DNA of 64,000 bases, from the NCBI RefSeq assembly GCF_004745575.1, contig NZ_RPEM01000003.1:1-64000 (forward strand), written 5' to 3'. This DNA is from Pseudotabrizicola sediminis. Lineage in GTDB: Bacteria; Pseudomonadota; Alphaproteobacteria; Rhodobacterales; Rhodobacteraceae. Shown here piece by piece: positions 11,939 through 30,441 of the stretch. The notes under the pieces are model-generated. The model had not been told where the DNA came from. It worked only from the letters and a program-made list of their open reading frames with translations, and did no database searches. The translations under genes and the position numbers were made by a program. Within the stretch, counting starts at the first letter, position 1; each line of letters begins with the position of its first letter.

Positions 11939-12117
11939 CCCGGGTCGCCCGATCCCCTTATCCGGCCAACAGCCGGCACCTGATGCGGTATGGGCCAGCG
12001 GCAAATCAGGCTCAAGCCCATTTGGCCTTTCGGCGCGGAACGTGAGGCATGATTCGGGGGTTGTCGGAACAGGTGCCACATGCCACCACCAAAGCTGCAC
12101 ATCAGGGAGACTGTCTA

Positions 12118-13101
12118 TTGGATCATGTTCTGGTGACAGGGGGCGCGGGCTATGTCGGCTCGCATGCGTGCAAGGCGCTGGCCGCGGCGGGGTTCATCCC
12201 GGTCACCTTTGACAATCTGACGACAGGCTGGCGTGAGGCGGTCAGATACGGCCCGCTGGTCGAGGGCGATCTGCTGGATCGCGTCGCCCTTGATGCCGCC
12301 TTTGCGCAATATAAACCAGTCGCGGTGCTGCATTTTGCAGCGCTGTCGCTGGTGGGCGAAAGCATGTCCAATCCGGCCCATTACTGGCGCGTCAATCTGG
12401 GCGGCGCGCTCAACCTGGCCGAGGCGGCGGTTGCGGCAGGCTGCCTCAAGTTCATCTTTTCCTCGACCTGCGCCACCTATGGCGATCAGGACGGCGTGGT
12501 GCTGCACGAGGGCACCGAGCAGCGTCCGATCAACGCCTACGGTGCATCAAAACGCGCCATCGAAGATGTGCTGGCGAATTTCGACGCTGCATTCGGCCTG
12601 CACCACGTGATCTTCCGCTATTTCAACGTCGCAGGTGCCGACCCCGACGGCGAGCTTGGCGAACAACACAGGCCCGAAACCCATCTGATTCCCCTGATGC
12701 TGGACGCCATCGCTGGTCGGCGGGACAAACTGGTACTGCATGGCACAGATTATCCGACCGCTGATGGCACCTGCATCCGCGATTATCTGCACGTGACCGA
12801 TCTGGCCAATGCTCATGTGCTTGGCCTGCAGTGGTTGCTGGCCGGCAAGGGGTCGCGGGCGTTCAACCTTGGCAGCGGCACGGGATTTTCGGTGCGTGAT
12901 GTCATCCGCCAGGCCGGTCGGGTCACCAACCAGAGCGTGCCCATCACCGAAGGCCCGCGCCGGCCCGGAGATGCCGCCATTCTGGTCTCGGGCAGCGACC
13001 GCGCCGAAACTGATCTGGGCTGGACCCGCACCCATTCGACGATGGATCAGATGATCCGCGATGCCTGGCACTGGTCCCGCAAGCCGGGCTACACATCTTG
13101 A
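12118..13101 (+). CDS. galE: UDP-glucose 4-epimerase
   Basis: Interconverts UDP-glucose and UDP-galactose with bound NAD. The protein of 327 residues begins with the Rossmann motif VLVTGGAGYVGSH. It carries the SSTCATYGD segment of the catalytic serine/threonine, the YGASKRAIE YxxxK motif, RYFNVAGADPDGELGE and YPTADGTCIRDYLHV, all characteristic of GalE. TTG at 12118 is chosen because AGGGAGA stands seven bases upstream and the Rossmann motif follows directly; an upstream ATG in the same frame (12049) would add an unrelated extension. The product feeds galactose and, through UDP-galactopyranose mutase (29329), galactofuranose to the locus. Convergent with the exporter permease, 14 bases apart. 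Confidence 0.95.
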   Translation: MDHVLVTGGAGYVGSHACKALAAAGFIPVTFDNLTTGWREAVRYGPLVEGDLLDRVALDAAFAQYKPVAVLHFAALSLVGESMSNPAHYWRVNLGGALNLAEAAVAAGCLKFIFSSTCATYGDQDGVVLHEGTEQRPINAYGASKRAIEDVLANFDAAFGLHHVIFRYFNVAGADPDGELGEQHRPETHLIPLMLDAIAGRRDKLVLHGTDYPTADGTCIRDYLHVTDLANAHVLGLQWLLAGKGSRAFNLGSGTGFSVRDVIRQAGRVTNQSVPITEGPRRPGDAAILVSGSDRAETDLGWTRTHSTMDQMIRDAWHWSRKPGYTS

Positions 13102-13952: not shown

Positions 13953-14035
13953 GGTAAATGATCCTTGTCTGATGAAACCGCCTTCAGATATGCTGGATAC
14001 GTGTAACGAGTGCAAATTATTCAGGACGGCCCGCC

Positions 14036-15316
14036 TTGACCGAACCGGCAAAACCGCAAGACGCATCCGGCGATGCGCTTCGAACCACGGTCCCGGCGCC
14101 GCCGCCAAGACCAATGGCTGTTGTTCCCCCGGCCCCCGCAGTGCCCAAACCCACCCCCGCGGCGCCTGCACCAGGCGTTCAGATGCGGTCTGTCGCCGGC
14201 CCCGCCACGTTGAAACGGCGGCACTACGGGCTGATGCTGTCCTTCCTGGCCATGGTCATCCTGCCGGTCGTGCTCAGCGCGATGTATCTGTTCGCGCTGG
14301 CCAATGATCAATATGCCTCGCGTGCCGGGTTCACGATCCGACAAGAAGACGGCAACAGCGCCAGCGCCATCTTGGGCGGGTTGTCTTTTCTGACCGGGGG
14401 ATCGCAAGGCGTGAATGCCGGGGTGTTGCACGAATTCATGCAAAGCCAGACCATGATGGAAAAGGTCGATGCCCGTGTCGATCTGCGCGGGCATTATGCG
14501 CAGGGCTGGCCCTCTGACCCGGTCTATTCGATCTGGCCCGATGCCACGACGGAAGAACTTTTCCGCTTCTGGAAGCGGGTGCTGCGCCTGTCCTACGATT
14601 CCTCCTCGGGTCTGATCGACCTGACGGTGCAGGCGCTTGACCCGGATACTGCGCAAAAGATTGCAATGGTCATCCTTGAGGAAAGCCAGACCATGATCAA
14701 CCAGCTGAACGACACCGCCCGGCGCGATGCGCTGGTCAATGCGGACCGGGAACTGGCGGATGCGGTCGAAGGCCTGCGCGTGGCGCGCGGCGCGTTGACG
14801 GTGTTCCGCGCCGAAACCCGGATCGTCGATCCGATTGCCGACATTCAGGGACGGCTTGGCGTGGTGTCCAACCTGCAACAGCAGCTTGCGCAGGCGCTGG
14901 TCGAGCTTGACCTGCTGGACCCGTCCACCCGCGTGGACGATCCGCGCCGCGCACAGCTTGACCGCCGGATCACCGTGATCCGTGACCGGATTGATCAGGA
15001 ACGCAACTTCTTTGGCACCAGCACCGGCGTCGCGTCAGACAGCTCCTATCCAGAAATGATTGCGCAATTCGAAGGGCTTAGTGTTGATGTTGAATTTGCG
15101 CAGCGCAATTACACTGCCGCGCTTGCAGCCCGGCAGGCGGCGATTTCGAATGCAAATCGCCAGTCGTTGTATTTGGCCGCCTACATTCCGCCCACCAAGG
15201 CACAGGATGCCGAATTTCCGCGCCGGTTCATCCTGCTGTCGATGATTCTGGGCTTCCTGCTGATGGCATGGGCCACCGCCGCGCTGATCTATTACAGCCT
15301 GCGGGACAGAGGCTGA
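14036..15316 (+). CDS. kpsE: Capsule export inner-membrane protein (KpsE/PCP-3 family)
   Basis: Polysaccharide co-polymerase that spans from the inner membrane into the periplasm and links the ABC exporter to the outer membrane. The protein has 426 residues. It starts with an unusual proline- and alanine-rich cytoplasmic stretch (about 20-50). A first membrane helix follows (GLMLSFLAMVILPVVLSAMY, about 65-84), then the ASRAGFTIRQED segment typical of KpsE/BexC/CtrB. A long coiled-coil periplasmic domain (about 200-360) and a C-terminal helix (FILLSMILGFLLMAWATAA) complete it. TTG at 14036 is favoured by AGGACGG just upstream. It is followed by kpsT 22 bases downstream; the permease gene lies divergently upstream. 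Confidence 0.88.
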   Translation: MTEPAKPQDASGDALRTTVPAPPPRPMAVVPPAPAVPKPTPAAPAPGVQMRSVAGPATLKRRHYGLMLSFLAMVILPVVLSAMYLFALANDQYASRAGFTIRQEDGNSASAILGGLSFLTGGSQGVNAGVLHEFMQSQTMMEKVDARVDLRGHYAQGWPSDPVYSIWPDATTEELFRFWKRVLRLSYDSSSGLIDLTVQALDPDTAQKIAMVILEESQTMINQLNDTARRDALVNADRELADAVEGLRVARGALTVFRAETRIVDPIADIQGRLGVVSNLQQQLAQALVELDLLDPSTRVDDPRRAQLDRRITVIRDRIDQERNFFGTSTGVASDSSYPEMIAQFEGLSVDVEFAQRNYTAALAARQAAISNANRQSLYLAAYIPPTKAQDAEFPRRFILLSMILGFLLMAWATAALIYYSLRDRG

Positions 15317-15338: not shown

Positions 15339-15992
15339 ATGATGGTATTTGAAAGCCTGTCAAAAGGCTTCTGGGTCAAGGGAGAATGGCATCAGGTGCT
15401 GGACGACCTGAACCTTGTGCTGCCGACCGGCAAATCGCTGGCGCTGCTGGGCCGCAACGGGGCGGGCAAGTCGACATTGCTCAAAATCATCGCGGGCACG
15501 ATGCCACCGACGACTGGCCGTGTGCTGGTGCAAGGCAGCGTGTCCTGGCCGGTTGGGTTTGCGGGCAGCTTTCACCGCGATCTGACCGGGGCGCAAAACA
15601 CCAAGTTCCTTGCCCGCGTCTACGGTGTCGATACCGAAACGCTGACCAGCTTTGTCGAAGACTTTGCCGAGCTTGGCAAACACTTCCACATGCCGATGAG
15701 CACCTATTCCTCGGGCATGTATTCGCGCCTTGCCTTTGGCGTCTCGATGGGCATCGCTTTTGATACCTATCTGGTGGACGAGGTTACGGCCGTGGGCGAT
15801 GCCCGCTTCCGCGAGAAAAGTGCAGCGGTCTTTGCCGAACGCATGAAAACCTCCAGCGCTGTGCTGGTCAGCCACAACACCTCGGATATCCTCAAGTTCT
15901 GCGATGCGGCCATCCTGCTGGACAATGGCAAGCTCAGCTATTTCGACGATGTCAAAGCCGCCCTCGCCGCCCATGCCGCGCTGATGAAGTGA
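15339..15992 (+). CDS. kpsT: Polysaccharide ABC exporter ATPase (KpsT-like)
   Basis: ATP-hydrolysing subunit of the capsule/polysaccharide exporter. The protein of 217 residues is normal for KpsT/CtrD. It shows Walker A GRNGAGKST (about 38-46), the signature-type segment YSSGMYSRLAFGVSM, Walker B TYLVDEVTAVGD with its catalytic glutamate, and the switch histidine in LVSHNTSDI. It lacks the C-terminal substrate-binding domain of O-antigen exporters (Wzt), which fits a KpsT-type exporter. It is co-transcribed with kpsE, 22 bases apart, and its 3' end converges on the RTX gene 27 bases away. Confidence 0.93.
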   Translation: MMVFESLSKGFWVKGEWHQVLDDLNLVLPTGKSLALLGRNGAGKSTLLKIIAGTMPPTTGRVLVQGSVSWPVGFAGSFHRDLTGAQNTKFLARVYGVDTETLTSFVEDFAELGKHFHMPMSTYSSGMYSRLAFGVSMGIAFDTYLVDEVTAVGDARFREKSAAVFAERMKTSSAVLVSHNTSDILKFCDAAILLDNGKLSYFDDVKAALAAHAALMK

Positions 15993-16019: not shown

Positions 16020-16919
16020 TCAGATGATGACGATGGACTGGTCCAGCCCACCCAGATCGACCACGCCAACCAGGGAAATCATCGTGTTTGCGGTCTCAAA
16101 GTTCAGCACCACAAATCCATCGCCGTCCAGCCGGCCAAACGTCATCTCAACCTGTTGTGCCGTCAGCACGCCGAACTGCCCCTGCCACAGCCAGACAGAC
16201 AGGTGCAGCAGGTCACCGTCGCTGGCCAGAAAGTCGGTGATCCGCGTCGTACCGTTGTTGGTGTAGAACACGAACACATCGGCACCGGTGCCCCCGGTCA
16301 CCACATCGTCGCCGCCCCCCGGGGCAATGGTGTCATTGCCGTCGCCACCATAAACCGTGTCATTGCCCTGACCAGCCCAGATCAGATCATCGCCCGCCTC
16401 GCCAAAAATCAGATCATCGGCCATGGCCCCAAAGACAGTATCATGGCCGTCACCGCCATAAATCGTGTCATTCCCGGCTCCACCGGCCAGTTCATCCGCG
16501 CCGCTGCCACCATACAAAAGGTCGCGTCCCGCCCCGCCCCACAGCGTATCATCGCCAGCGTCCCCAAAAAGCTGGTCATTGCCACCCGCCCCGCCCATGG
16601 TGTCATTCCCGTCGCCGCCGCTCAGCGTGTCATTGCCGGGGCCGCCCCAGACCTCATCGTTTCCCGGCCCCGCATCCACATAGTCATTCCCGCGCGACGC
16701 CCAGATGATGTCATCGCCCGCGCCGCCAAAGATGGTGTCATGTCCGGCATTCCCGATGATGAAATCCGCGCCCTCGTGGCCCCGGATCAGGTTATCGGCG
16801 TCATTGCCGTGGATGGTGTCAGCTCCCTGCCCGCCATGGGCCTCTTCGATCACCGTGCCCAACGCGACCAGAACGGTGCCCCGCGCGCCGTACACATCCG
16901 ACACCCCGCCCTGCCGCAT
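16020..16919 (-). CDS. RTX secretion half of an interrupted serralysin-type protease
   Basis: This 299-residue reading frame is the C-terminal continuation of the protease gene at 16929-18152, cut off by one in-frame TAA codon (16929-16931). It begins with the junction typical of serralysins (GVSDVYGARGTVLVALG). About twenty glycine- and aspartate-rich RTX nonapeptides of the GGxGxDxxx type follow, over roughly residues 30-225, forming a calcium-bound beta-roll. The C-terminal 60 residues (from DGDLLHLSVWLW) are a probable type I secretion signal and are similar to the end of the protein at 18429-20951. The internal ATG has no ribosome binding site, so this half is probably not made alone unless the TAA is read through or is a sequence error. 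Confidence 0.75.
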   Translation of the reverse strand: MRQGGVSDVYGARGTVLVALGTVIEEAHGGQGADTIHGNDADNLIRGHEGADFIIGNAGHDTIFGGAGDDIIWASRGNDYVDAGPGNDEVWGGPGNDTLSGGDGNDTMGGAGGNDQLFGDAGDDTLWGGAGRDLLYGGSGADELAGGAGNDTIYGGDGHDTVFGAMADDLIFGEAGDDLIWAGQGNDTVYGGDGNDTIAPGGGDDVVTGGTGADVFVFYTNNGTTRITDFLASDGDLLHLSVWLWQGQFGVLTAQQVEMTFGRLDGDGFVVLNFETANTMISLVGVVDLGGLDQSIVII

Positions 16920-16928
16920 GTCGATCAG

Positions 16929-18152
16929 TTACGTGGCATTGGTCGCGCTGAAATCCATCCGGTCCCAGCCGCCGTCATCGACGATGGTAAAGCCGAACGT
17001 CTCGGCTGGGTCCATCCACCATGGCCGGGCCAGACCGTCAAACATCACCGCCATCGCGGTGCCAAGCCGCCCCGGAAGGGTGGAATGCGCGCCCCAGACC
17101 GTGTCGCCGGCAAACACGGCCGGCAAGGCCGGGTAAAGGTAGGCAAGGGCCGCAAGATCCGCCACCATTGGCGTGATCGGCTGAAAAGGGGTCGCCTCGA
17201 CAAAGCCGTTCGCAGCAACATCAAAATACGACATGATCGTCATCTGCGTGCTGTCGTTGCGATAGTGATTGTCGACCCCATAGCTGGCGCTGCCGTTGTA
17301 AAAGCCGCCATGGCCCAGACCCAGCGCATGGCCGATTTCATGCAGATAGGTCTGATAGCCATAGCTGCCAAAGGTGGTCCCGTAGGCGTCAAGCCAGCCA
17401 GTGCTGACCGTCACCGTGGCGCTTCCGTAGGTTCCGTCAGGATAGATCGCGTTTGGTCCGGCAAAGGCGTAACGACCGTCGCCATAATCCGGATCATGAT
17501 CGTCGAACAGAATCGTCGCCCTCGCCGAGCCGGTCTCGACAAAGACCACTCCTGTGGTGGCAGACCATGTGTCCAGCGCCATCCGCGCGACATCCTGCCC
17601 CTGCGCGGTCAGGGCGGTCAGGTTGACGGTGACCGGCAGGCCAGTCCTGACCCCTTCAAGCGTCAGTGCCGATCTGGCAGCACCCCAGCCGGAATCTGTC
17701 AGTTGGCTGGCGATCTGTTCAATGGTGAACACATCCGTTGCCGTGCGCAGCGTGTACTGCCCTTGCGCCCCGCCGGACCCGCCGACATCCAGAAAATAAG
17801 TGCCGCTGACCGATGGTGTGAACCGCACCATCGACGTGGTGTTGTCAGCCCCCACATCATCGTTGAACGCGACCCAAGTACCGCTGCCATCACGCAGCGC
17901 AAGGTGCGGGTCGCTCAGCCCCGCGCCCCCGCCGGTGCCGTAGGCCGTAAAGACATAGGTTTGCCCGGCGCTCAGCTCGACCGCGACCCAATCCCTGTCG
18001 CCCGCGGTCAGACTGCCGGTGAATGTGTCGCCCACCGCAATTCGCGCCGGTGTTGCCGCCGATCCGGGAACATCCCCAAGTTCCACCGCAGCGCGGCGGA
18101 TGGCCATGCCGGCATCCCGCAGGACCGGCCCCAGAAAGCTGTCTTTCGCCAT
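16929..18152 (-). CDS. Serralysin-like zinc metalloprotease, catalytic half (C-terminus lost by stop codon)
   Basis: Protein of 407 residues related to M10B metallopeptidases. An N-terminal pre-peptidase C-terminal (PPC-type) beta domain lies at about residues 35-140 (TFTGSLTAGDRDWVAVEL). The catalytic domain follows with HEIGHALGLGH (271-281), the HExxHxxGxxH zinc motif, and the Met-turn MSYFD (307-311), 26 residues later. There is no cleaved signal peptide, as expected for a type I secreted protein. The reading frame ends SATNAT followed by TAA and continues in the same frame as RTX repeats at 16020-16919. A single CAA-to-TAA change would explain this. Without the RTX half the enzyme should lack its secretion signal and calcium roll. 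Neither a type I ATPase nor a membrane fusion protein is in the window. Confidence 0.85.
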   Translation of the reverse strand: MAKDSFLGPVLRDAGMAIRRAAVELGDVPGSAATPARIAVGDTFTGSLTAGDRDWVAVELSAGQTYVFTAYGTGGGAGLSDPHLALRDGSGTWVAFNDDVGADNTTSMVRFTPSVSGTYFLDVGGSGGAQGQYTLRTATDVFTIEQIASQLTDSGWGAARSALTLEGVRTGLPVTVNLTALTAQGQDVARMALDTWSATTGVVFVETGSARATILFDDHDPDYGDGRYAFAGPNAIYPDGTYGSATVTVSTGWLDAYGTTFGSYGYQTYLHEIGHALGLGHGGFYNGSASYGVDNHYRNDSTQMTIMSYFDVAANGFVEATPFQPITPMVADLAALAYLYPALPAVFAGDTVWGAHSTLPGRLGTAMAVMFDGLARPWWMDPAETFGFTIVDDGGWDRMDFSATNAT

Positions 18153-18428
18153 CAGATATCCGGCCCGTTGTCATGCCCCCTGCAAAAAGCCAAGTAGACT
18201 GCAAAGGTGGCCAATGTCCTAACGAGGCCAATCGGGCCGCGTCATTTCAGGCTGGCTTGCAGGACGGGGACGGTCATGCCCGCCGGACGTGTCAAAAACC
18301 CACCGGCAACTTCATCAAGCTTTCCAAAATTGCAGTGCAACCGCCCGGATTTGGCCGGATTTGCGCCATGCATGCTGCGCGCCGCAAGTGGACGCTGCCC
18401 GACGGGTGTTACGGGTCGGGGGTGGCGC

Positions 18429-20951
18429 ATGCTGCGCATGGTGGACCGCTTTTCAAGCGGGAACGCGTCGGTTGATCTTGGGATCACCGAACTTTCCGTC
18501 GTCGACGGACCAGAGGGGCTGCGACTGTTTGCCTATTCCGGGGCCAACGGTGGCCTGTCCACCTATGGCATCGGGACAGACGGCCACCTGACCCCTGTAA
18601 CGATCAAAACGATGACGACCGGGCACGGGCTTCTGGCGGAAACCGACATGACGGTCGCCCATCTCGGCACATCGACTGCCATTCTGCTTGGCCTTGCCAC
18701 AGGCGGCGAACTTGTCGGGTGGGTCGCCAACCTGTCGGGGGGCATCGGGCGCCCCTTGGCGCTGACCCTCCCCGACGGGTTCACCGGGCGCATGGTGATT
18801 GCAGACCAGCCGGACAGCGCCGCCCCGCTTTATGTTCTGGCACCCGACAGCGGTCGCATCGCGGTCTATGATCCCGGCACCGCCGTGATGACCGAACTGT
18901 CGGTCACCGGGGCCATTCCCACCGGCACCCACGGTCTGGTGCAGATCACCGGTCCCGGCCAGCCACTGCTGCTGGCGATCGATGCCGCGCGCAACAGCCT
19001 GACGGCCCTGCGTCATGACACGGCCACCAACAGCCTGACCCCCACCGCATCGCTTGCCGCCAGCGACGGGCTGGCCGTGGCGGCCCTGTCCGATCTGGAT
19101 GTCGTCACCCTGGCAGGCCAGACCTTCGTGATCGCGGCAGCCGCAGGCACCTCCAGCCTCACCGTCATCCGCGTGTCGGATCAGGGGCAGTTGACCATCA
19201 CCGATCACCTGCTCGATTCCCGCGACACCCGCTTTGCCGCAGTAAGCGCAGTGGACACGGTTACGGTCAACGGACAGGTCTTTGTCGCCACCGGCGGCGG
19301 GGATGATGGCGTCACGCTGTTCAGGTTGCTGCCGGACGGCACGCTGCAAACCCTCGCAACGCTGGAAAACAGCCTTGCGGGCGGGCTGGCGAATGTCACA
19401 GCGGTCAAGATCATCCACAGCGGCGAGCGGCTGTTCATCGTTGTCGGGGGCGAGACGGAAACCGGGCTGGCGGTGCTGGAATGGCCACTTGGGGCCATCG
19501 GTGCCGTGATCACCGGGGCGGGCATTGGGGCAACGCTGACCGGCACCGGCGGGGCAGACATCATTACCAGCGGCGCGCCAGATCAGGTCTTGTCAGGCGG
19601 CAGCGGTGATGATGTGCTGATCGCCGACACCTCCGGCACCCGCCTGACGGGGGGCGCAGGCCGCGATGCCTTCGTGCTGCGAGAAACAGCAACCCTGACC
19701 ACGATCACCGATTTCCAACGGGGTGCCGACACGCTTGACCTGACCGGATGGCCCATGCTGCGCGATACGGGGCAGCTGACCATCACACTGCGCAGCGATG
19801 GCATCACCCTGTCATTCAATTGCCGGACGGTCACGGTTCACGCCTCAGACAGCCACCCGCTGACCCTGGCCGAGGTGTTTCCTGCCGGGCTCGGACCGGC
19901 GCGCATTCCGGTGGCCACCCTGACCGCCAGTTCCGACGGCGGCTCGGCCCACGGGGAAGGCGACGGGGCCCTCAGCCCCGCTGACCCGGATGAACCGGGC
20001 GACACTGGGGGCGACGCCAGCATCCCTCCCCCCACACCCCTGCCCGCCACCCGTCTCATCGGCAGCAGCACCATTGACCCCGCCACCGGGCCGACCGAAA
20101 TCACCCGTCTGCCGGACTGGGCCACCGATCCCGGCTGGCAAAACCTGTCCACAACCCCCCTGACCCAAACCGGCACCTCTGGCGATGACACCTTGATCGG
20201 GGCCTCAGGCGCCGATTCGCTGAACGGCGGCGCGGGCAATGATCTGATCTATACCGGCTTCGGCAACGATACCGTCTTCGGTCTGGCAGGCGACGACTTC
20301 ATCTTCGCCGCCGGGGGCAACAACGAACTTTGGGGCGGGCTCGGCAATGACGTGATCCGCGCCCGCGACGGCGATGACCTGATCGGCGGTGGGGCCGGGC
20401 ATGACCTGCTGGATGGCGGCAACGGCCAGAACACCATCTGGGGCGGGTCGGGAAATGACACGATTTTCGGCGGCGACCACTCTGACACCATCGGCGGTGG
20501 CCCCGGCAATGACCTGATCTTTGGCTATGACGGCGATGACGATCTGTTCGGCGCCTCGAATCATGACACCATCCACGGCGGGGCCGGCAATGACACCATC
20601 TGGGGCGGTCCGGGCAATGATGTGATCTCCGGGGGGCCGGGCGATGACCTGATCGCCGCCGGGGCGGGCACCGATCATGTCTGGGGCAATGAGGGCGCAG
20701 ATACCTTCCTGTTCTACCGCTATTACAACGACACCTTTGTCCATGATTTCAGCCTGGCCGAAGGTGACCAGATCCAGCTGACGCAATGGATGTTTCGCGG
20801 CACTTTCCCTTCGGGCGACCACATCGCACAGCAGTATGGACGTGTGACCGCCGATGGCATTGTGCTGGATTTCGGCGTGTCCGACACGATCATCCACCTG
20901 CTTGGGGTGTATGATCTGCAGGCACTGGCAGACCATATCACGGTGATCTGA
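18429..20951 (+). CDS. Large RTX calcium-binding surface protein with propeller-like N-terminus
   Basis: Protein of about 840 residues. The N-terminal 370 residues are repeated beta sequence alternating short motifs such as LYVLAPDSGRIAVYDPG and TFVIAAAAGTSSLTVIRV, suggesting a beta-propeller. A short RTX group (about 375-430) is followed by a linker rich in Pro, Asp and Gly (about 510-560). A main block of about seventeen RTX nonapeptides (roughly 590-770) then leads to a C-terminal tail (AEGDQIQLTQWMF to the end) similar to the tail of the protease RTX half. No catalytic motif was found, so it may be an adhesin or matrix protein secreted by a type I system. ATG at 18429 is preferred because GGGGGTGG stands just upstream; the open frame extends to 18207 without family features. 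The 276-base region upstream is divergent with the protease gene and should hold both promoters. Confidence 0.75.
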   Translation: MLRMVDRFSSGNASVDLGITELSVVDGPEGLRLFAYSGANGGLSTYGIGTDGHLTPVTIKTMTTGHGLLAETDMTVAHLGTSTAILLGLATGGELVGWVANLSGGIGRPLALTLPDGFTGRMVIADQPDSAAPLYVLAPDSGRIAVYDPGTAVMTELSVTGAIPTGTHGLVQITGPGQPLLLAIDAARNSLTALRHDTATNSLTPTASLAASDGLAVAALSDLDVVTLAGQTFVIAAAAGTSSLTVIRVSDQGQLTITDHLLDSRDTRFAAVSAVDTVTVNGQVFVATGGGDDGVTLFRLLPDGTLQTLATLENSLAGGLANVTAVKIIHSGERLFIVVGGETETGLAVLEWPLGAIGAVITGAGIGATLTGTGGADIITSGAPDQVLSGGSGDDVLIADTSGTRLTGGAGRDAFVLRETATLTTITDFQRGADTLDLTGWPMLRDTGQLTITLRSDGITLSFNCRTVTVHASDSHPLTLAEVFPAGLGPARIPVATLTASSDGGSAHGEGDGALSPADPDEPGDTGGDASIPPPTPLPATRLIGSSTIDPATGPTEITRLPDWATDPGWQNLSTTPLTQTGTSGDDTLIGASGADSLNGGAGNDLIYTGFGNDTVFGLAGDDFIFAAGGNNELWGGLGNDVIRARDGDDLIGGGAGHDLLDGGNGQNTIWGGSGNDTIFGGDHSDTIGGGPGNDLIFGYDGDDDLFGASNHDTIHGGAGNDTIWGGPGNDVISGGPGDDLIAAGAGTDHVWGNEGADTFLFYRYYNDTFVHDFSLAEGDQIQLTQWMFRGTFPSGDHIAQQYGRVTADGIVLDFGVSDTIIHLLGVYDLQALADHITVI

Positions 20952-21124
20952 CCCCGCCGTCGCAACCGACCCTGCCCGGGCAGCGCTGCCCCCCATTTCG
21001 GCGTGCGCATGTTTTTGATGGAACTCCGGCGCGATTTTGTGTTGGCTGCACGCATGACACACCTGCCCGCGCCACGTCGCCCTTGCGGCTTCGCATTGCC
21101 CTCTCTTCGCGACGGCAACCGCCC

Positions 21125-22840
21125 GTGAGCCTGCAAGACCCCCCCCGGATCAGCGTCATCGTGCCGGCCTACAACGTGGGCCCCTATATCGGTGCCGCGA
21201 TTGCCTCGCTCCGCTGCCAGACCTTTCCCGGTTTCGAGGCGCTGGTGATCGACGACGGCTCTGCCGACGACACCCGCCAGCAGGCGCTGGCCGCCATCGG
21301 CGGCGACGGGCGGTTCCGGCTGATCCATCAGGAAAACCGGGGCCTGTCCGGCGCGCGCAACGCAGGGCTTGATCTTGCCCGCGCCCCGGTCATCGCCTTT
21401 CTGGACGGGGACGACCGCTTTGCCCCCACCTTCCTGCAGCGCCTGCACGACACCTTGCACAGCACCGGCGCTGACTGGGTGGCCTGCGGCCTGGCCTTCT
21501 GCACGCCCGATGGCGTCCGGCATCCGCATTCCGCCATCCACGGCCAACCAGAGCCACGCACCAGCGCGCAGGCTGTGCCCTTTGCGCTGGACGATTGGGC
21601 GCAGGTGATCTGCCATTTTCCCTCTGCATGGAACAAGCTTTACCGGCGTGCCTTCATCGGCGATCTGCGCTTCGACGAGGGCACCTGGTATGAGGATCAT
21701 ACCTTCTTTCACCGCCTCGCCGCAAAAAGCAGGGTGCTGCACCATCTCTCTGATCCGCTGTACCTCTACACGCTTGACCGCGACGGGCAGATCACCCGCG
21801 CCGACAGCGACCGCGTGTTTGACCAGATTCCGGTGCTGGAAACCTCTGCTGCCATTTTCCACGGCGCTGACAAATCCGGCGCAGACACCGGGCTGGCCCG
21901 CCTTGCCACCCGGCTGTTCTGCGAACGACTGGAGGTGATCCGCTCCCCCCAGCGCGCCGCGCGGTTCCGGCAGGCCGCAGCCGGGTTCCTTGCCCGCCAT
22001 CGGCTTGCCCCCGAATGGACATGGGACCGGCACCTCGATGCGCTGCAAGCCTGCAGCCTGTCAGGCCATCCCCCGGTGACGATCCGCCATGATGCGGCAG
22101 ATGGGGAGGACATCACCCCTGATCTTCTGCCCGATCCTACTACACCATTGGCCCCGTTCTTCCAGCTTTCCGCTACCGATCACCCCATCGGTCCGCACGG
22201 GCTGGTGATCGACCTGCCCGGGTTTGGGCAGGTCGACCCTACCGCCCTTGCCGACATCGCCGGGCAGCTGCTGCATAGCGATCTGGCGGCGGTTCTGATC
22301 ACGCAGCCTTCGACGCCGCAGCCCCATGCCAACCCGCTGTCGCAGCCCCGCATCCTGTCGCCCGACACGGCGCTTGACCTGACCCCGGACCGGCATGCCC
22401 TTCTGGTCAAAGCCGCCTTTGCCTGCCAGCCCGTCAGTCCCGTCCCGCAGCTGCGCCTTGCGGAACAGGCCCTGCGGCTGTGCGCGGCGCAGGCCCCGGT
22501 TGCCTGCGCGCAAATTGCGGTCGCCGCGCCCCGGCCCATCACACCGCCGCGCCTGCCCACAACCCTGCCCACAACCCTCAACGCGCTTGACCGCTGGTGC
22601 GCAGCCGTTGCCCCGCTTTTGCCACCGGGGGGTGCGCGGCGTCTGTTCCTGCGCCACGCCACCCTCTGGCTGGCGCAAAACCAGCCGCGCGGCACGCTGC
22701 ACCGCCTGCGCCTTGCCCTGACGCGGCTGCGCATCTGGCGGATCGGGAAAGCGCGTGGCTGGATCGGCGCGCCGGGCACCATCGACGCCGATACTCTGCC
22801 GGTGCTGCAGCAAATCTTCCGCTTGCCCCCCGCCGGGTGA
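21125..22840 (+). CDS. GT2 glycosyltransferase
   Basis: Protein of 571 residues. The N-terminal GT-A domain (about 8-260) shows ISVIVPAYNVGPYIGAAIAS, VIDDGSADDT, NRGLSGARNAGLD and FLDGDD, the classic GT2 donor-binding and metal-binding motifs. WYEDHTFFHR supplies the likely catalytic base region. The remaining 300 residues are mixed helical sequence without motifs I recognise. GTG at 21125 is chosen because the GT2 domain starts seven codons later; a TTG at 21083 in frame is the alternative, and neither has a clear ribosome binding site. It is followed by the 1357-residue glycosyltransferase on the same strand, 62 bases away, and is probably co-transcribed with it. Confidence 0.88.
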   Translation: MSLQDPPRISVIVPAYNVGPYIGAAIASLRCQTFPGFEALVIDDGSADDTRQQALAAIGGDGRFRLIHQENRGLSGARNAGLDLARAPVIAFLDGDDRFAPTFLQRLHDTLHSTGADWVACGLAFCTPDGVRHPHSAIHGQPEPRTSAQAVPFALDDWAQVICHFPSAWNKLYRRAFIGDLRFDEGTWYEDHTFFHRLAAKSRVLHHLSDPLYLYTLDRDGQITRADSDRVFDQIPVLETSAAIFHGADKSGADTGLARLATRLFCERLEVIRSPQRAARFRQAAAGFLARHRLAPEWTWDRHLDALQACSLSGHPPVTIRHDAADGEDITPDLLPDPTTPLAPFFQLSATDHPIGPHGLVIDLPGFGQVDPTALADIAGQLLHSDLAAVLITQPSTPQPHANPLSQPRILSPDTALDLTPDRHALLVKAAFACQPVSPVPQLRLAEQALRLCAAQAPVACAQIAVAAPRPITPPRLPTTLPTTLNALDRWCAAVAPLLPPGGARRLFLRHATLWLAQNQPRGTLHRLRLALTRLRIWRIGKARGWIGAPGTIDADTLPVLQQIFRLPPAG

Positions 22841-22902: not shown

Positions 22903-25900
22903 ATGATCCCGTTCCGCACAGCAAATGGTGCCACCTTCCGCTGCCAGATCGACCCGGACTGGACCTCCTATGCCAACCTGAACTTCTACACGGCAGAACA
23001 GGGGCAGATCCCCTTCCATCTGTCCTTGCGCCTTGCCGACAGCCTTGCCGTGATCAACCAAAAGGATGCCAGGGGCTGGCACCGCGAAGACCACATCGCC
23101 CTGACCTTTCCCCCACGCCGCTTTCCCGTAACACTGTCCTTTGACGCCCATGCCGTGACCGTAGATGTTGACGGGGTGCAGCTTGGCCGCTTTCCCCGCC
23201 TGCCCCGGTTTGACCGGACCGCGCGCTTTCTGCTCCGGCGCGGCTACCCCCGGCTGCGCCAGATCACCCTGTGCACCGCCGAAGGCGCTGTGCCCTGGGA
23301 AACCGTTGAGACCCGCGACCATACGTTTGACCGGCTGTGGAACGATGTGCGCCCCGGTGCCGGTCTGGTGCTGACCGACCGGATGGAACTGGCAGAACGG
23401 CTGCCACGCGGGCAGACCGATCCGCGCCATGCCGTGATCCTGCCCGGATCAGCCGCGCCGGTCGCCCTGCGCCCTGCCACGCAGGCCCCGTCATCGGTGC
23501 CCAACACCTTCGCCCTGCCCGAAGGCGTCGCCGCCGTGCTGGTGCCGGGCCGGATCTGGCTGACCACCGGCCCCGATGCCGCCGCCGAACTGCCTGTGAT
23601 CGACCTGCTGACCGGCCACGCCCGCCCGCCCCTGCGCATCGACCGCACCGCCCTTGCCCAGCGGCTGCTGCGCCAGACCCGCAGCGGCGGTATCGCCAAC
23701 GATGACATCGCCGCGTTGCAGGCGATCGAGCATGTCTGCCATTCCGGCATCTGGCCAACGCTGGACCCGCAGGTTCACTCCACCCTTGTTGCGGCGGCGG
23801 CCCGGCTTGGGCTGTCGGGCTTTCTGACCAAAGCCATCGGCACTACGCCCCCCGCAATGGTACCGCAAACGGCACCCTCTGCATCACCGCTTGCGGGCCT
23901 GACAGCCGATCTGTCGCGCCTGCTGGCCACCTCGCCCGACCGTGCTGCCCTTGCCGACTGGTTGGCTACCGCCCTGCCGCCGCATGCGGCGACTGAGGCC
24001 GAAGACCTCGCCCTGACCCTCTGTCCCAGCTTTTGCGAACATGACGCCTTTGACCTGCTGCACGCGGCCCTGTCCGCGCGCGGCCTGCCCCCGGTCCGGC
24101 CCAGCGATGATGTGGGCTATGTCTCGCTCCGCCTGCCGTTTCAGCTGCTGGATGGCGATTATGATCAGGTCATCAGCCGGCTGTACCTTCTGGCCAGCCG
24201 CGATGGCGGCTGGCTGGCGAGTGCGGCTGTGGGATGGATCGCACGCACCATAGCCTCCCCCGGCTCCCTGCCCATCCCTGAACGCCAGCGTCTGGCCATC
24301 ATCAATGCCTTCTGCACCCTGCTGACCGCACAGGCAAAAGACCCCTGGGGCCGCACGCCCTGCCACGGGTTGATGGACGGCCTGCTTGCCCTGCTGCGCC
24401 AATTGGCCCGCCTGCCACCCGATCTGCGCGGTACGCTGGAACAGACAGCGCTCACCGCCTATGGCCTGTCGCCCCGGTTCTGGTCGCGGCTTCCCTCCGC
24501 CGTAGATCATGCCACGCTGTCGGCCTTCGCCCCCGGCCTGCTCACCGCCGGGAGAGCTTTTGTCCGCCTGACCGATCCGGCTGACGCCGCAGCAGCCCTG
24601 TCGGCGCTGCATACCCTGAAGGCTGAGGGCGTCGCCGCCGCCGCGCTGTGCCTGCATCCTGCAGCTGGGCTGCGCCAGACCGCGCCATGGCACCCGGACC
24701 TGCTGCTGCGCGATCTGTTCCGGCCCGGTGCGACCGATGACCCGGATTTCGATGTCCGCTCTGCCATTGCCCGCAGCCAACCCACCATTGGCCGCGCCCC
24801 CCGCCCGGCCCCGTTCGAGGCTCTGGAACGCAAGCTCGGCCAGACCGCCTTTGACCTGATCACCCATTGGCACACCACAGCCCCGCCCCAGCGTCTGGCG
24901 CGGCTGGACGCCGTGCTCACCGATGCTCTTGCCTTGTCGGGCAGCGCCGCCGGGCATGTGGGGCTGGCGGTCAGCCTTGGCCTGATCCGCGCCCTGCGCG
25001 ATGATCAGGCGGCCGTCAGCCTTGGGCTGGCCGGGCTGCGCCAGATGGTGACCGCGGCGCAGGTCACGCCCGATGCGCTGGCCTCTGCCGCTGCGACACC
25101 GGCCCTGCAAGCGGTGCGGGCCGACCCGCATCTGGGCCCGCTTGTGCACGCAGCGCTCGGCCTTTCGGCTCCGCCGCCGGTGCAGAGCCCCCATGCCTCC
25201 CCGCCCACGGGTGCTGCGAGTGCCCTGTTCAACACCGTCGTCGTGGTCATGTCCTGCCACCCCAACTTTGCCACCCGCATTGCCGCACTGCGCCGGGGCT
25301 GGCTGGCCGACCTCACGCGGCTTGGCATTCCTTATATCGTCGTGGTCGGCGGTTCCACGGACCCGCAGCCAGCCGCAGACGTCATCTGCCTCAACGCCCC
25401 CGATGATTACGAAGGCCTGCCGCAGAAATCCCTCGCTGCCATCGCCCATGTCCACCAACACTTCCCCGGCCGCCGGATGCTGAAGGTCGATGACGACTGC
25501 TTTCTGGATGTCGATGAGTATTTCTTCAGCCTGTCCAGCCTGAAAGCCGATTACTACGGCCGCCCGCTGGCCCGCGCGCGCGGCCAGATGGACCGCAGCT
25601 GGCATATGGGCAAATCATCCTCGCTGCGCGGCCGGCACGATCTGGACAAATCGCCCGAGCCGTCAACCTATGCCGATGGCGGATCGGGCTATCTGCTCAG
25701 CCCCGCAGCCATCAACGCGCTGCTGACCCGTGCCGCCACCGCCGAAGGCCAGCGGCTGATCGACGCTTCGTTCATGGAAGACAAGCTGGTCGGCGATCTG
25801 CTGGCCCTGTCCGGCATCCGCGTCACCGGCGACGATTACCGCGTCCATGTGCTGCGCCGCGCGCGCGCCGGTGGCCTGCTGGTGCCGAAATGGGAGAACA

Positions 25901-26976
25901 CCTGCCTGCCCTTCGCCGGGTCTGGCGTCAAACTCGCGCATCTGGACGGGCATGACCTGCAGAATCTGGCCGTCCGCACCGCAAAAACCCGCCGCCCCGC
26001 GACGGAAAAGATCTGGCCTACGCTGATCCCGGCGCGGCTTGGCGCGCAATCCCACGCGCTGGACCTGATCTCGCCCCCGGCGCGGTTTGACCGTGCCCGC
26101 AAGGCCCCGTTGGCCGTGGTGGCCTGCCTGCGCAATGAAATCGCGATGCTGCCGCATTTTCTGGCCCATTACCGCGCGCTTGGCGTTGACAGCTTTCTGA
26201 TCGCCGACAACGGGTCCGATGATGGCACGCTGGAACACCTTGCCGTACAACCCGATGTGGCGCTGTTCACCGTCGATTCCGACTATAGTCAGTCGCATTA
26301 CGGCGTGCTCTGGCAACAGGCGCTGCTGGCCCAACGCACGGGCCTCTGGTCCGTCGTGGCGGATGCCGACGAGCTGATGACATGGACCGCCGATGCCACC
26401 GGCGATCTGCACGGCCTGCTGTCCGGCCCAGACTTCACCGACCATGATGCCGCCCGCGTCTTCATGCTCGACATGTATCCGCAAGGCCCGCTGTCGGGCA
26501 CCGACTTCACCGATCAGCCCCCCTTCACCGCCGCCCCTTTCATCGATCGTGACCCGTTCCTGACCACCGCGCTGGGGCGTGGCCCGTTTTCCGACGCGCA
26601 CACCTTTACTTCCGCCACCCGCCACCGCCTGCTGCCCGGCTCGCGCCCCGAACTGTTTGTCGCGCAGAAAATCGCCCTGCTGCGCTATCAGCCGTGGATG
26701 CGCCTGTCAGACGGGCTGCACTACGTCGCCGAAACCCGGCTTTCCCCCCGCGCGCTGCTGTTTGGCCATTTCAAATACACCGCCGCCTTCCGCGCAAAAG
26801 CGGTGGCCGAGGTGGCGCGGGGCCAGCATTTCAACAATGCCGAGGAATACCGCAAGTACCTGACCCTGATCTCCGAGGGGCGCGAGACGATCTACGATCC
26901 CACCCTCTCGGTCCGCTGGACCGACAGCCCCTTTGTGCAGTCGGTGCTTTCCACCGGCAAACCGCCCGCGCCCTGA
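22903..26976 (+). CDS. Giant glycosyltransferase with galectin-like N-terminal domain
   Basis: Protein of 1357 residues, ATG preceded by AAAGGG. Four parts can be seen. Residues about 10-125 form a beta domain with H39, R43, N52, W59 and E62, spaced much like the sugar-contacting residues of galectins. Residues about 160-760 are mostly helical, without known motifs. A GT31-like domain (about 775-1050) carries VDDDCFLD (about 862-869), a metal-binding DDD motif, and GGSGYLLSPAAINALL, typical of beta-galactosyl or fringe-type transferases. The last domain (about 1068-1357) is GT2/GT92-like, with VVACLRNEIAMLPHFLAHY, LIADNGSDDGT and VVADADELM. It thus joins a candidate lectin with two transferase domains. 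Its 3' end overlaps the convergent GT4 gene by 85 bases. Specificity is unknown; galE and glf in the locus point to galactose. Confidence 0.8.
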   Translation: MIPFRTANGATFRCQIDPDWTSYANLNFYTAEQGQIPFHLSLRLADSLAVINQKDARGWHREDHIALTFPPRRFPVTLSFDAHAVTVDVDGVQLGRFPRLPRFDRTARFLLRRGYPRLRQITLCTAEGAVPWETVETRDHTFDRLWNDVRPGAGLVLTDRMELAERLPRGQTDPRHAVILPGSAAPVALRPATQAPSSVPNTFALPEGVAAVLVPGRIWLTTGPDAAAELPVIDLLTGHARPPLRIDRTALAQRLLRQTRSGGIANDDIAALQAIEHVCHSGIWPTLDPQVHSTLVAAAARLGLSGFLTKAIGTTPPAMVPQTAPSASPLAGLTADLSRLLATSPDRAALADWLATALPPHAATEAEDLALTLCPSFCEHDAFDLLHAALSARGLPPVRPSDDVGYVSLRLPFQLLDGDYDQVISRLYLLASRDGGWLASAAVGWIARTIASPGSLPIPERQRLAIINAFCTLLTAQAKDPWGRTPCHGLMDGLLALLRQLARLPPDLRGTLEQTALTAYGLSPRFWSRLPSAVDHATLSAFAPGLLTAGRAFVRLTDPADAAAALSALHTLKAEGVAAAALCLHPAAGLRQTAPWHPDLLLRDLFRPGATDDPDFDVRSAIARSQPTIGRAPRPAPFEALERKLGQTAFDLITHWHTTAPPQRLARLDAVLTDALALSGSAAGHVGLAVSLGLIRALRDDQAAVSLGLAGLRQMVTAAQVTPDALASAAATPALQAVRADPHLGPLVHAALGLSAPPPVQSPHASPPTGAASALFNTVVVVMSCHPNFATRIAALRRGWLADLTRLGIPYIVVVGGSTDPQPAADVICLNAPDDYEGLPQKSLAAIAHVHQHFPGRRMLKVDDDCFLDVDEYFFSLSSLKADYYGRPLARARGQMDRSWHMGKSSSLRGRHDLDKSPEPSTYADGGSGYLLSPAAINALLTRAATAEGQRLIDASFMEDKLVGDLLALSGIRVTGDDYRVHVLRRARAGGLLVPKWENTCLPFAGSGVKLAHLDGHDLQNLAVRTAKTRRPATEKIWPTLIPARLGAQSHALDLISPPARFDRARKAPLAVVACLRNEIAMLPHFLAHYRALGVDSFLIADNGSDDGTLEHLAVQPDVALFTVDSDYSQSHYGVLWQQALLAQRTGLWSVVADADELMTWTADATGDLHGLLSGPDFTDHDAARVFMLDMYPQGPLSGTDFTDQPPFTAAPFIDRDPFLTTALGRGPFSDAHTFTSATRHRLLPGSRPELFVAQKIALLRYQPWMRLSDGLHYVAETRLSPRALLFGHFKYTAAFRAKAVAEVARGQHFNNAEEYRKYLTLISEGRETIYDPTLSVRWTDSPFVQSVLSTGKPPAP

Positions 26977-28424
26977 CCCCGATACAGCGCCAGCAGCCTG
27001 TCGAGATGCGGCCCCATCGTCTCTGGCACCATCGCATTCTGCCAATAGTCCTGCGGCCCCACCACGCCTGACAGGATCGCCCCGATCCGATCCGCAAACG
27101 CCGCCACATCGCCCGCGCGGAACACGAACTCCGGGCTGTTGCCCAATTCCTGCGCACCGCCCATGTCGCTGCACAGCAAGGGAATGCGCCGCGCGTGCAT
27201 CTCGATTGCCACCTGTGGCAGGTTGTCCTCCCACATCACCGGCAACAGGCCGAGGCCAACATCGGCCAGCAGCCGGTCCAGATCGGCATGACCATAGCCA
27301 TCCTGATGCTGAAACCCCCCCAGCCTGGGGGCCAGTGCCGCCAGCCGCGCCATCACATCCGCCTCGCCGCGCCGCGCGGCCACCACCAGATGCAGGCGGT
27401 TCAGCACTCCATCCGGCAGCGCCTCCAGCGCATTGAGCAGAAAGTAAAACCCCTTGTCACGGCGCATATAGCCGAAATAGGCCAGCTTCACCGTGCCATC
27501 GGGCCGCAGGATCGGCCCGCGCGCGGGCGCGCTGGCAAAGCCCTGCGCCTCGACCGTGCCGATATAGCTGGTGACGGCCTTGTCAGGTAAAATGCCCTGC
27601 CGCAGCGCAATCTGGCGCACCCGGTCTGACACACACAGCACCAGATCGCACTGCGCGTTGATCTGGCGCACCATGGCCGCCCGCCGCTGCACAAAGCCCG
27701 GCCCCGCACCGGCCCCGGCCGCTGGGTCCACAGCCCGCCGCTGCCGCGCCCCCTGCAACCGCCCCAGCCGCCGGCCCAGACCGAAGATCACCCGGAAGGT
27801 CTGCCGGAAAAACCAGCTGTCAGGCGATACGCCCGCCACCTTCAACCGGTAGGCAAGCCCATGCCCGGCCCGGATCTGCCCCGCGTTCCAGCGGTGCGGC
27901 AGGCAGGTGACACAGCGCGCGCCCGATTGGTCATCGGTGCAATGGCGCGCTTCGTCCTGCCAGAAGTTCACCTGCGGGCAGAACGGATAATAGTTGTGCA
28001 AGGACAACACCAGCCTTGTGGCCGGAAACCTTTCCTTCAGGCGCAACACATCTGCAGGGACGCCTTCCAGATTGTTGAAATGCACCACATCATAGGGGCC
28101 GGTCCGCGCCAGAAAGTCGAAAAACACCGCCTCGGTTGCCGGATGGCTGATCTGCGCCGCTTGCCCGAAAGACGCATGCCCCGGGGCCAATGTGCCGGAA
28201 TTGACCAGATCATACCGCCGCGCATCGCGCGGACCATGCCGCATCCGCTCCCATCGGGGGCGCGGGCGCAGCGGATCATAAGATGTGCCGCAGGCGATGA
28301 AACTGGCCTCCACCCCCGGTACCGTCGCGAGCGCCAGCATCAGGTTGCGCTGATAGAGCGACACACCGCCGCCCCTGCCTTCCGGGTCCAGATAATCGAC
28401 CCAATTCACATACAGGATTTTCAT
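26892..28424 (-). CDS. GT4 glycosyltransferase
   Basis: Protein of 510 residues with a GT-B fold. The N-terminal domain starts MKILYVNWVDYLDPEGRGGG, a common beginning of family 4 enzymes with the glycine-rich loop. A cysteine group lies around YYPFCPQVNFW and RCVTCLPHRW. The C-terminal nucleotide-sugar-binding domain shows KLAYFGYMRRDKGFYFLLNA and a donor-site segment around VGLGLLPVMWEDNLPQVAIEM, whose glutamates fit the EX7E motif. It is immediately downstream of the sulfotransferase gene: the stop of that gene and this ATG are adjacent, so translation is probably coupled. The last 28 codons overlap the end of the convergent 1357-residue gene. Donor and acceptor are unknown. Confidence 0.9.
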   Translation of the reverse strand: MKILYVNWVDYLDPEGRGGGVSLYQRNLMLALATVPGVEASFIACGTSYDPLRPRPRWERMRHGPRDARRYDLVNSGTLAPGHASFGQAAQISHPATEAVFFDFLARTGPYDVVHFNNLEGVPADVLRLKERFPATRLVLSLHNYYPFCPQVNFWQDEARHCTDDQSGARCVTCLPHRWNAGQIRAGHGLAYRLKVAGVSPDSWFFRQTFRVIFGLGRRLGRLQGARQRRAVDPAAGAGAGPGFVQRRAAMVRQINAQCDLVLCVSDRVRQIALRQGILPDKAVTSYIGTVEAQGFASAPARGPILRPDGTVKLAYFGYMRRDKGFYFLLNALEALPDGVLNRLHLVVAARRGEADVMARLAALAPRLGGFQHQDGYGHADLDRLLADVGLGLLPVMWEDNLPQVAIEMHARRIPLLCSDMGGAQELGNSPEFVFRAGDVAAFADRIGAILSGVVGPQDYWQNAMVPETMGPHLDRLLALYRGQGAGGLPVESTDCTKGLSVQRTERVGS

Positions 28425-29171
28425 TCAGACCAGTTCATCCTCCAACCAGTTGGCGCGGCCAAGGTATCGCATATAGGATTCAATCGGGTCTGGCGTGGCA
28501 AACCGGTCAAGCACCCGGTTGCTGCCCTGCTTGATCAGCGGGGATTTCATGCCCGAGTCATGTTGCAGCCCCAAAAACGCGCAGATCCGCGCATTGAACT
28601 CGGGTCTGAACAGCTCGCAATACTCCAGCGTCAGGCTCGGATTGGGCAGGCTGCCAAGCCATTGGGCAAACAGAAAGTCCATCGTTGCATATTCATGCCA
28701 CTGATGGCTGATCTCCTCCGGGCTCGCAACGATCTTCCGCGCCATGTCGCGTGATCGCCGGGTCTGTGCCCAATTTTTGGTCTGCATCGCTTTCAGATAG
28801 GACGCGACCTGCGCCAGCCGGTTTTCGCGGTGAATATAGATGATCCGGGTCTGCGCCAGATCCGGCAACTGGCTCAGCACCCTTATGTTGTGCCCCAGCA
28901 TCAGCTTGAACCCGATCTGCTGCCACGGCTCTGCCTCATGCCGCTCAAAGAACTGCCGCATGAAATAGCGCGGCCCCCAGTCGCGCTTGTAGCGCAGGTC
29001 GGGGTCATAGTCCGGCTCTCCAGTTTCGATCACGCTGTAGGGGTTGAACAACTCGCCTGAACAGGTCACGTCGCGGTGCGAATTCAGCAGGGTCATCAGA
29101 TAGGTGGTGCCACTGCGCGGCAGGCCCAGGATGATGAACCGCCGGTGCTGCGCCTGATCTGCCTCGCTCAT
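28425..29171 (-). CDS. Sulfotransferase
   Basis: Probable PAPS-dependent sulfotransferase of 248 residues. The 5'-phosphosulfate-binding loop is seen as LGLPRSGTTYLMTLL near the N-terminus. The 3'-phosphate-binding region follows as RIIYIHRENRLAQVASYLKA, in which Arg and the later Ser fit the family pattern. The overall pattern resembles Stf0/NodH-type enzymes that act on carbohydrates. ATG at 29171 is chosen because GGGGCAGG lies directly upstream; the extension to 29219 lacks similarity. It is the first gene of a pair with the GT4 enzyme and divergent from glf. Its place in the locus suggests it sulfates a sugar of the exported polymer, which is inference. Confidence 0.85.
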   Translation of the reverse strand: MSEADQAQHRRFIILGLPRSGTTYLMTLLNSHRDVTCSGELFNPYSVIETGEPDYDPDLRYKRDWGPRYFMRQFFERHEAEPWQQIGFKLMLGHNIRVLSQLPDLAQTRIIYIHRENRLAQVASYLKAMQTKNWAQTRRSRDMARKIVASPEEISHQWHEYATMDFLFAQWLGSLPNPSLTLEYCELFRPEFNARICAFLGLQHDSGMKSPLIKQGSNRVLDRFATPDPIESYMRYLGRANWLEDELV

Positions 29172-29298
29172 CCTGCCCCTGCCCGATTGTGCGCGCCTGC
29201 CGCACGCGGTTTCCCCCAAGTTTCACCATCGCGCCGCACAGGGCAAGGGGGGCTGCAGCACAACACCGCAGGTTGTGCCAAATCGTCCCGCCGTCTAG

Positions 29299-30441
<1,143 letters not shown>

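Follow-up and report, generated by a model that had tools for sequence, protein, structure and literature searches.

What does a galectin domain do at the head of a bacterial glycosyltransferase? The question is raised by a 64,000-nucleotide stretch of Pseudotabrizicola sediminis DNA (contig NZ_RPEM01000003.1, positions 1 to 64,000; hereafter the window), which encodes a 1357-residue protein with an N-terminal galectin domain followed, after a long middle region, by glycosyltransferase (GT) domains of the GT31 and GT2 types. Galectins, best known from animals, are as a rule regarded as lectins of eukaryotes. We conclude that this one is probably a lectin arm that grips a beta-galactoside of the nascent polysaccharide within a multi-domain glycosyltransferase, whose product is predicted to be exported via a Kps-like transporter.

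Identity of the galectin domain

An earlier note on this DNA proposed that a galectin-like domain, encoded by 22903..23290, is fused to bacterial glycosyltransferases. The open reading frame (ORF) and the residues named there (H39, S41, R43, N52, W59, E62 and H64) are as described. The domain does lie in this segment, although it ends slightly further on, at ~23328 (residue 142). The fusion itself is real and conserved, as judged from the Pfam domains of the window protein and its relatives. Pfam matches in the window protein cover residues 22–99 (Gal-bind_lectin), 825–973 (Galactosyl_T) and 1077–1170 (Glyco_tranf_2_4), and the sole match in the middle region of ~630 residues is to LPD22, below threshold (12.6 vs 28.6 bits). 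No membrane segment was found in the protein, whose top 19-residue Kyte-Doolittle mean is 1.48.

Residues 1–142 form a galectin domain. Scanned in isolation, they match PF00337 (Gal-bind_lectin) with an E value of 7e-6 and a score of 26 bits (cut-off 22.1). A phmmer search of PDB with the single sequence is weak (best E 0.0077), and every one of the 11 sequences that it returns at E ≤ 10 is a galectin or galectin-type lectin. With a 17-row family profile the best E value is 8.2e-22 and 197 sequences match at E ≤ 1; of the 60 listed, 59 bear the name galectin and the remaining one, a ‘putative fiber protein’, is presumably the galectin-type fibre of an adenovirus. Structure prediction, one of the checks that the earlier note had proposed, gives the galectin beta-sandwich fold. 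In a search of viral protein structures, lymphocystis disease virus 3 and porcine adenovirus supply the named galectin-domain proteins among the first five rows, the other three of which are unnamed; phage rows appear from E 3.5e-4 onwards and carry concanavalin A-like or uncharacterised labels.

Conservation of the sugar site

Conservation was assessed in three alignments. A1 holds 14 Rhodobacteraceae rows, the window and 13 relatives, all 13 recruited through the galectin domain (seven from a domain-query search of the nearest genomes and six from a PF00337 search of the family). A2 (17 rows) extends this set by two distantly related alphaproteobacterial rows and by one partial row. A3 (19 rows, including plasmid copies) consists of A1 plus L070, L071, L075, L077 and L078, which were recruited with the transferase module or the whole protein as query. 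The galectin domain of Tropicibacter oceani L076 is the same as that of L071 and is counted once, the Thalassococcus S3 plasmid is not counted in addition to G356 (L029, L072), and L073 and L074, which have no galectin match, are in no alignment. L032 (G270), whose galectin-GT gene is apparently broken across frames, contributes one piece to A2 and nothing to A1 or A3. PF00337 matches at E ≤ 0.01 in 14/14 A1 rows and 18/19 A3 rows; of five A3 rows viewed individually, two score above the cut-off, two score below it and one has no match.

In galectin structures, H44, R48, N61, W68 and E71 (galectin-1 numbering) hold the O4/O6 face of galactose, and R73 reaches the next sugar. The earlier note matched H39, R43, N52, W59 and E62 to this site, and its spacings (H+4=R, N+7=W and W+3=E) are correct. 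The loop between R43 and N52 is indeed shorter by four, spanning 9 residues vs 13 in galectin-1, and Ser41 and His64 do stand in place of the Asn and the last Arg, respectively.

That note had also staked its proposal on conservation of the site in close homologs. All five residues are kept in A1, where other genera share 25–34% identity with the window domain, and all five are among the nine of 145 positions that are invariant. In A2 the invariant positions are exactly these five (5/145). The chance of picking them at random is 2e-9, a figure that ignores phylogeny and row recruitment; the residues had been named before any homologue was seen. The figure applies to A2, as two of the five columns are not invariant in A3. 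The complete set is present in 17/17 A2 rows and 18/19 A3 rows, so the expectation of a conserved site holds except in Palleronia, which has lost two of the five. The degraded-site domain of Palleronia lies at L078:5986-6408.

Beside the core site, Ser41 is present in 19/19 A3 rows, and position 64 is variable, with Arg in 2/19. Given the roles of the corresponding galectin residues and the conservation of all five, core galactose recognition is likely retained and the adjacent subsite altered. Ser in place of Asn, together with loss of the last Arg, suggests a neighbouring sugar other than the N-acetylglucosamine (GlcNAc) or glucose (Glc) bound by animal galectins.

The transferase module and its cassette

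The galactosyltransferase domain, scanned in isolation, matches PF01762 (Galactosyl_T) at 31.2 bits against a cut-off of 23; its predicted fold is GT31, with the acidic metal motif (invariant DDD). PF01762 matches at E ≤ 0.01 in 20/20 rows of a GT31 alignment (A4), and L072, scanned whole, scores 20 bits, under the cut-off of 23. The window protein carries PF00337 and PF01762 in one chain. A search with the GT31-GT2 module found a full-length match in 12/388 genomes, and in 12/12 of these at least one copy has the galectin domain, which in G154 and G370 is visible only by the family profile. Distances in the galectin and GT31 domains are correlated (Mantel r 0.88, p 1e-4, 19 rows), as expected if both domains travelled together.

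A partner GT2 is present in all 19 A3 loci. It is fused to the protein in seven (L017, L034, L070, L071, L075, L077 and L078), is encoded upstream in the same orientation in 11, and is nearby on the opposite strand in one (L033). A GT4 homologue is found in 18/19, and not in the stretch of L033. Among 13 searched loci with the full protein, eight have a sulfotransferase homologue and eight a glf homologue, with flank length limiting both counts. A sulfotransferase is annotated in 4/4 plasmid loci viewed, and genes for an ATP-binding cassette (ABC) transporter ATPase, a ‘sugar transporter’ and a permease follow in 3/4. The earlier note had placed galE and glf in the window locus, and both genes pass their NCBIfam cut-offs (Table 1). 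The Kps-like exporter, galE, glf and the sulfotransferase support a polysaccharide pathway.

Role of the galectin domain

We propose that an enzyme without membrane segments builds a galactose-containing, possibly sulfated surface polysaccharide, which a Kps-like ABC transporter would export. The lectin arm would grip a beta-galactoside at or near the growing chain end, most likely one that the GT31 domain or the partner GT2 had added. Such a grip would keep the acceptor near the catalytic domains, making the addition of further sugars efficient and directing it to the right chain. A bolder form of this proposal is that the galectin of a capsule polymerase reads its own growing chain, binding the beta-galactose just added by GT31 and setting the register between two or three linked transferases; we offer this tentatively, as a possibility on the doubtful side.

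Several observations weigh against a lectin arm. The gene is patchy, and six of the 16 genomes of the window's genus (window included) have the domain. The Palleronia protein (L078) has Q at position 43 and P at position 62, yet retains the domain. Recruitment of A1 through the galectin domain favours motif-bearing rows; among the five rows recruited via the transferase module or the whole protein, four retain all five site residues. The Asn after the His and the final Arg of animal galectins are absent here; both are usual in animal galectins and not universal, so their absence is a matter of specificity and not of membership in the family. The glf gene points to galactofuranose, and we know of no galectin site of this kind that prefers galactofuranose. 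Finally, G356 carries a second copy (L072) that has the transferases and no galectin domain, and L073 (G102) has neither galectin nor GT31. These natural galectin-free relatives lie at L072:4017-7631 and L073:4071-7619.

The alternative that survives best, although we judge it unlikely, is that the domain is a docking or scaffolding module that binds the exporter or the partner GT2, and that its sugar binding is of minor importance or has been lost. Palleronia, with its degraded site, fits such a module, as does the constancy of the GT2 in or beside the 19 A3 loci and its position N-terminal of the galectin in the seven fused proteins. A pure scaffold, however, would keep a different surface, whereas in this domain, which has drifted to ~35% mean identity, the small set of invariant positions includes those of the sugar site.

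The cassette could instead glycosylate a protein, for example the adjoining RTX protein, whose earlier glycosylation the galectin would read in the manner of GalNAc-transferase lectin domains. RTX-like matches occur in 10/16 relatives' loci searched, and the plant galectin-GT31 enzymes act on proteins (PMC4687291). However, RTX repeats are common and match through the repeats, and an exported polysaccharide is favoured by the Kps-like exporter and by the ABC and sugar-transporter genes next to three of the four plasmid copies viewed; we consider protein glycosylation quite unlikely.

A third alternative draws on the window ATPase, which is 217 residues long, with ABC_tran as the sole domain found and no carbohydrate-binding module seen. 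Here the galectin would sense the finished chain, binding a capped or completed end and either passing it to the exporter or halting polymerisation, like the Wzt module; quality control of this kind has been described for O antigens (PMC9445017, PMC11231755). The domain sits on a transferase rather than on a transporter, and its site would suit galactose and not a capping sugar, which makes chain sensing decidedly unlikely. A chance or convergent likeness to galectins, without galectin ancestry, could appeal to the weak single-sequence search and to the PF00337 score of the whole protein (20.5 bits, just under the cut-off of 22.1), and is rejected as exceedingly improbable because the family-profile search, the predicted galectin fold and the conserved site contradict it.

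Distribution and organization of the locus

The nearest genomes were searched with the domain, and samples of the family, class and phylum with PF00337, each at E ≤ 0.001; these genome searches cover the window's phylum, with thin sampling outside the class. The domain matches in 8/101 nearest genomes. PF00337 matches in 11/394 family, 3/385 class and 2/398 phylum genomes, the window genome being included in each of these counts, and both matches in the phylum sample are Rhodobacteraceae, one of them the window genome. Control genomes gave 0/14 in each of the family, class and phylum searches. Confinement of the domain to the window's genus was rejected on the basis of the 11/394 family genomes and of a galectin fusion in another family. 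This second architecture, which combines the galectin with GT2 and GT25 domains and keeps the complete five-residue site, occurs in two genomes of another alphaproteobacterial family (ORFs L038:8475-12143 and L039:4833-8531).

Homologues also occur on plasmids. Among 72,556 plasmid records 18 match, five of them over most of the protein (78–99% covered) and the remaining 13 over the C-terminal quarter or less (11–26% covered). The near-full homologues are on plasmids of Tropicibacter oceani, Sulfitobacter W027 and D7, Thalassococcus S3 and Palleronia LCG004. No link between the plasmid homologues and the Roseobacter ‘biofilm plasmid’ context was established.

The features of the window are collected in Table 1. 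A DUF2793 protein is encoded within the polysaccharide locus, and an RTX calcium-binding protein adjoins the cassette. A metallopeptidase-like ORF and the RTX-repeat ORF immediately after it, the latter with a weak, sub-threshold match to a serralysin C-terminus, may be two genes or one interrupted gene.

Table 1. Coordinates of the galectin-GT31-GT2 gene, its domains and site residues, and neighbouring genes in the window
Feature	Position	Strand	Basis or remark
Galectin-GT31-GT2 protein, 1357 aa	22903..26976	+	ATG ORF; Pfam Gal-bind_lectin, Galactosyl_T, Glyco_tranf_2_4
Galectin domain, residues 1-142 (about)	22903..23328	+	
H39, sugar site	23017..23019	+	19/19 A3 rows
R43, sugar site	23029..23031	+	18/19 A3 rows; Gln in Palleronia
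N52, sugar site	23056..23058	+	19/19 A3 rows
W59, expected stacking Trp	23077..23079	+	19/19 A3 rows
E62, sugar site	23086..23088	+	18/19 A3 rows; Pro in Palleronia
Middle region, residues 143-774	23329..25224	+	No Pfam match reaches its cut-off
GT31-type galactosyltransferase domain, residues 775-1060	25225..26082	+	DDD invariant
GT2-type (Glyco_tranf_2_4) domain, residues 1061-1357	26083..26973	+	PF13704 73.9 vs 27.5 bits
GT2 glycosyltransferase upstream	21083..22840	+	PF00535 113 bits; BLAST to fused ORFs
GT4-type glycosyltransferase	26892..28424	-	Pfam Glyco_trans_1_4; relatives
Sulfotransferase	28425..29219	-	Pfam Sulfotransfer_3; relatives
glf, UDP-galactopyranose mutase	29329..30441	+	TIGR00031 309.2 vs 303.75 bits
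galE, UDP-glucose 4-epimerase	12049..13101	+	TIGR01179 388.5 vs 262.3 bits (equivalog); start may lie downstream
KpsM-like gene	13116-14171	-	NCBIfam match below cut-off
KpsE-like gene	14036-15316	+	NCBIfam KpsE-family match below cut-off
KpsT-like ATPase gene	15339-15992	+	PF00005
DUF2793 protein	9307-10827	-	
RTX-repeat ORF	16020-16919	-	
Metallopeptidase-like ORF	16929-18152	-	
RTX calcium-binding protein	18207-20951	+	

Comparison with known systems

Animal galectins are free-standing lectins. The bacterial domain shares their fold, their Pfam family and the core site H-R-N-W-E, and differs from them in the replacement of the Asn between His and Arg and of the last Arg. Lectin domains on glycosyltransferases are known from two kinds of Golgi enzyme, polypeptide GalNAc-transferases and MGAT4A, the GalNAc-transferase domain having a ricin-type fold. 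In these enzymes, MGAT4A being also called GnT-IVa, the lectin domain steers acceptor choice or raises activity (PMC4432651, PMC9296478). They offer a precedent for a guiding arm, although their lectin folds are others and their substrates are proteins.

Among bacterial systems, the carbohydrate-binding module of Wzt offers a precedent in polysaccharide export: it reads the chain under construction in O-antigen exporters (PMC9445017, PMC11231755), as the galectin is proposed to do here. Unlike the galectin domain, it sits on the transporter and binds a terminal cap, and the accessible text of these sources does not describe it as a galectin. Galactan synthases of the WbbM and GlfT2 type are bacterial enzymes, two-domain or bifunctional, that make polymers of galactose; they differ in having GT111/GT8 or GT2 catalytic domains, and the available portion of the source mentions no galectin domain in them (PMC12269835).

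Plant GALT1–GALT6 (CAZy GT31) combine PF00337 and PF01762 in one chain (PMC4687291, PMC8667403). They are predicted to be type II membrane proteins of the Golgi, with hydroxyproline or N-glycans as their targets (PMC4687291), and the role of their galectin domain is stated as unknown (PMC8667403). The bacterial protein resembles them in its galectin and GT31 domains and in predicted galactose transfer. Unlike them, it has no membrane segment, contains the ~630-residue middle and a second, GT2-type transferase, and belongs to a bacterial setting of partner GT2 and capsule export. Since it has no type II Golgi anchor, we compare it with the GALT1–6 clade rather than assign it to that clade. The earlier note had suggested that a galectin fold in a polysaccharide-polymerising enzyme would offer a new way of holding a galactose-containing acceptor. 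Given the plant precedent, the galectin-GT31 pairing is not new in principle; for bacteria, no report of a galectin-glycosyltransferase fusion was found in the open PubMed Central literature.

The bacterial protein thus appears to be a larger variant of the galectin-GT31 pairing, without a membrane anchor. Such an anchor-free enzyme makes the role of a galectin inside a galactosyltransferase open to direct mutation and polymer analysis, with the natural relatives that have no galectin domain (L072 and L073) as a comparison for what the domain adds. If the galectin does read the growing chain of its own polymerase, then galectins had a biosynthetic role outside eukaryotes, and galectin-guided galactosyl transfer, seen together with plant GALT1–6, would be an old or repeatedly invented device.
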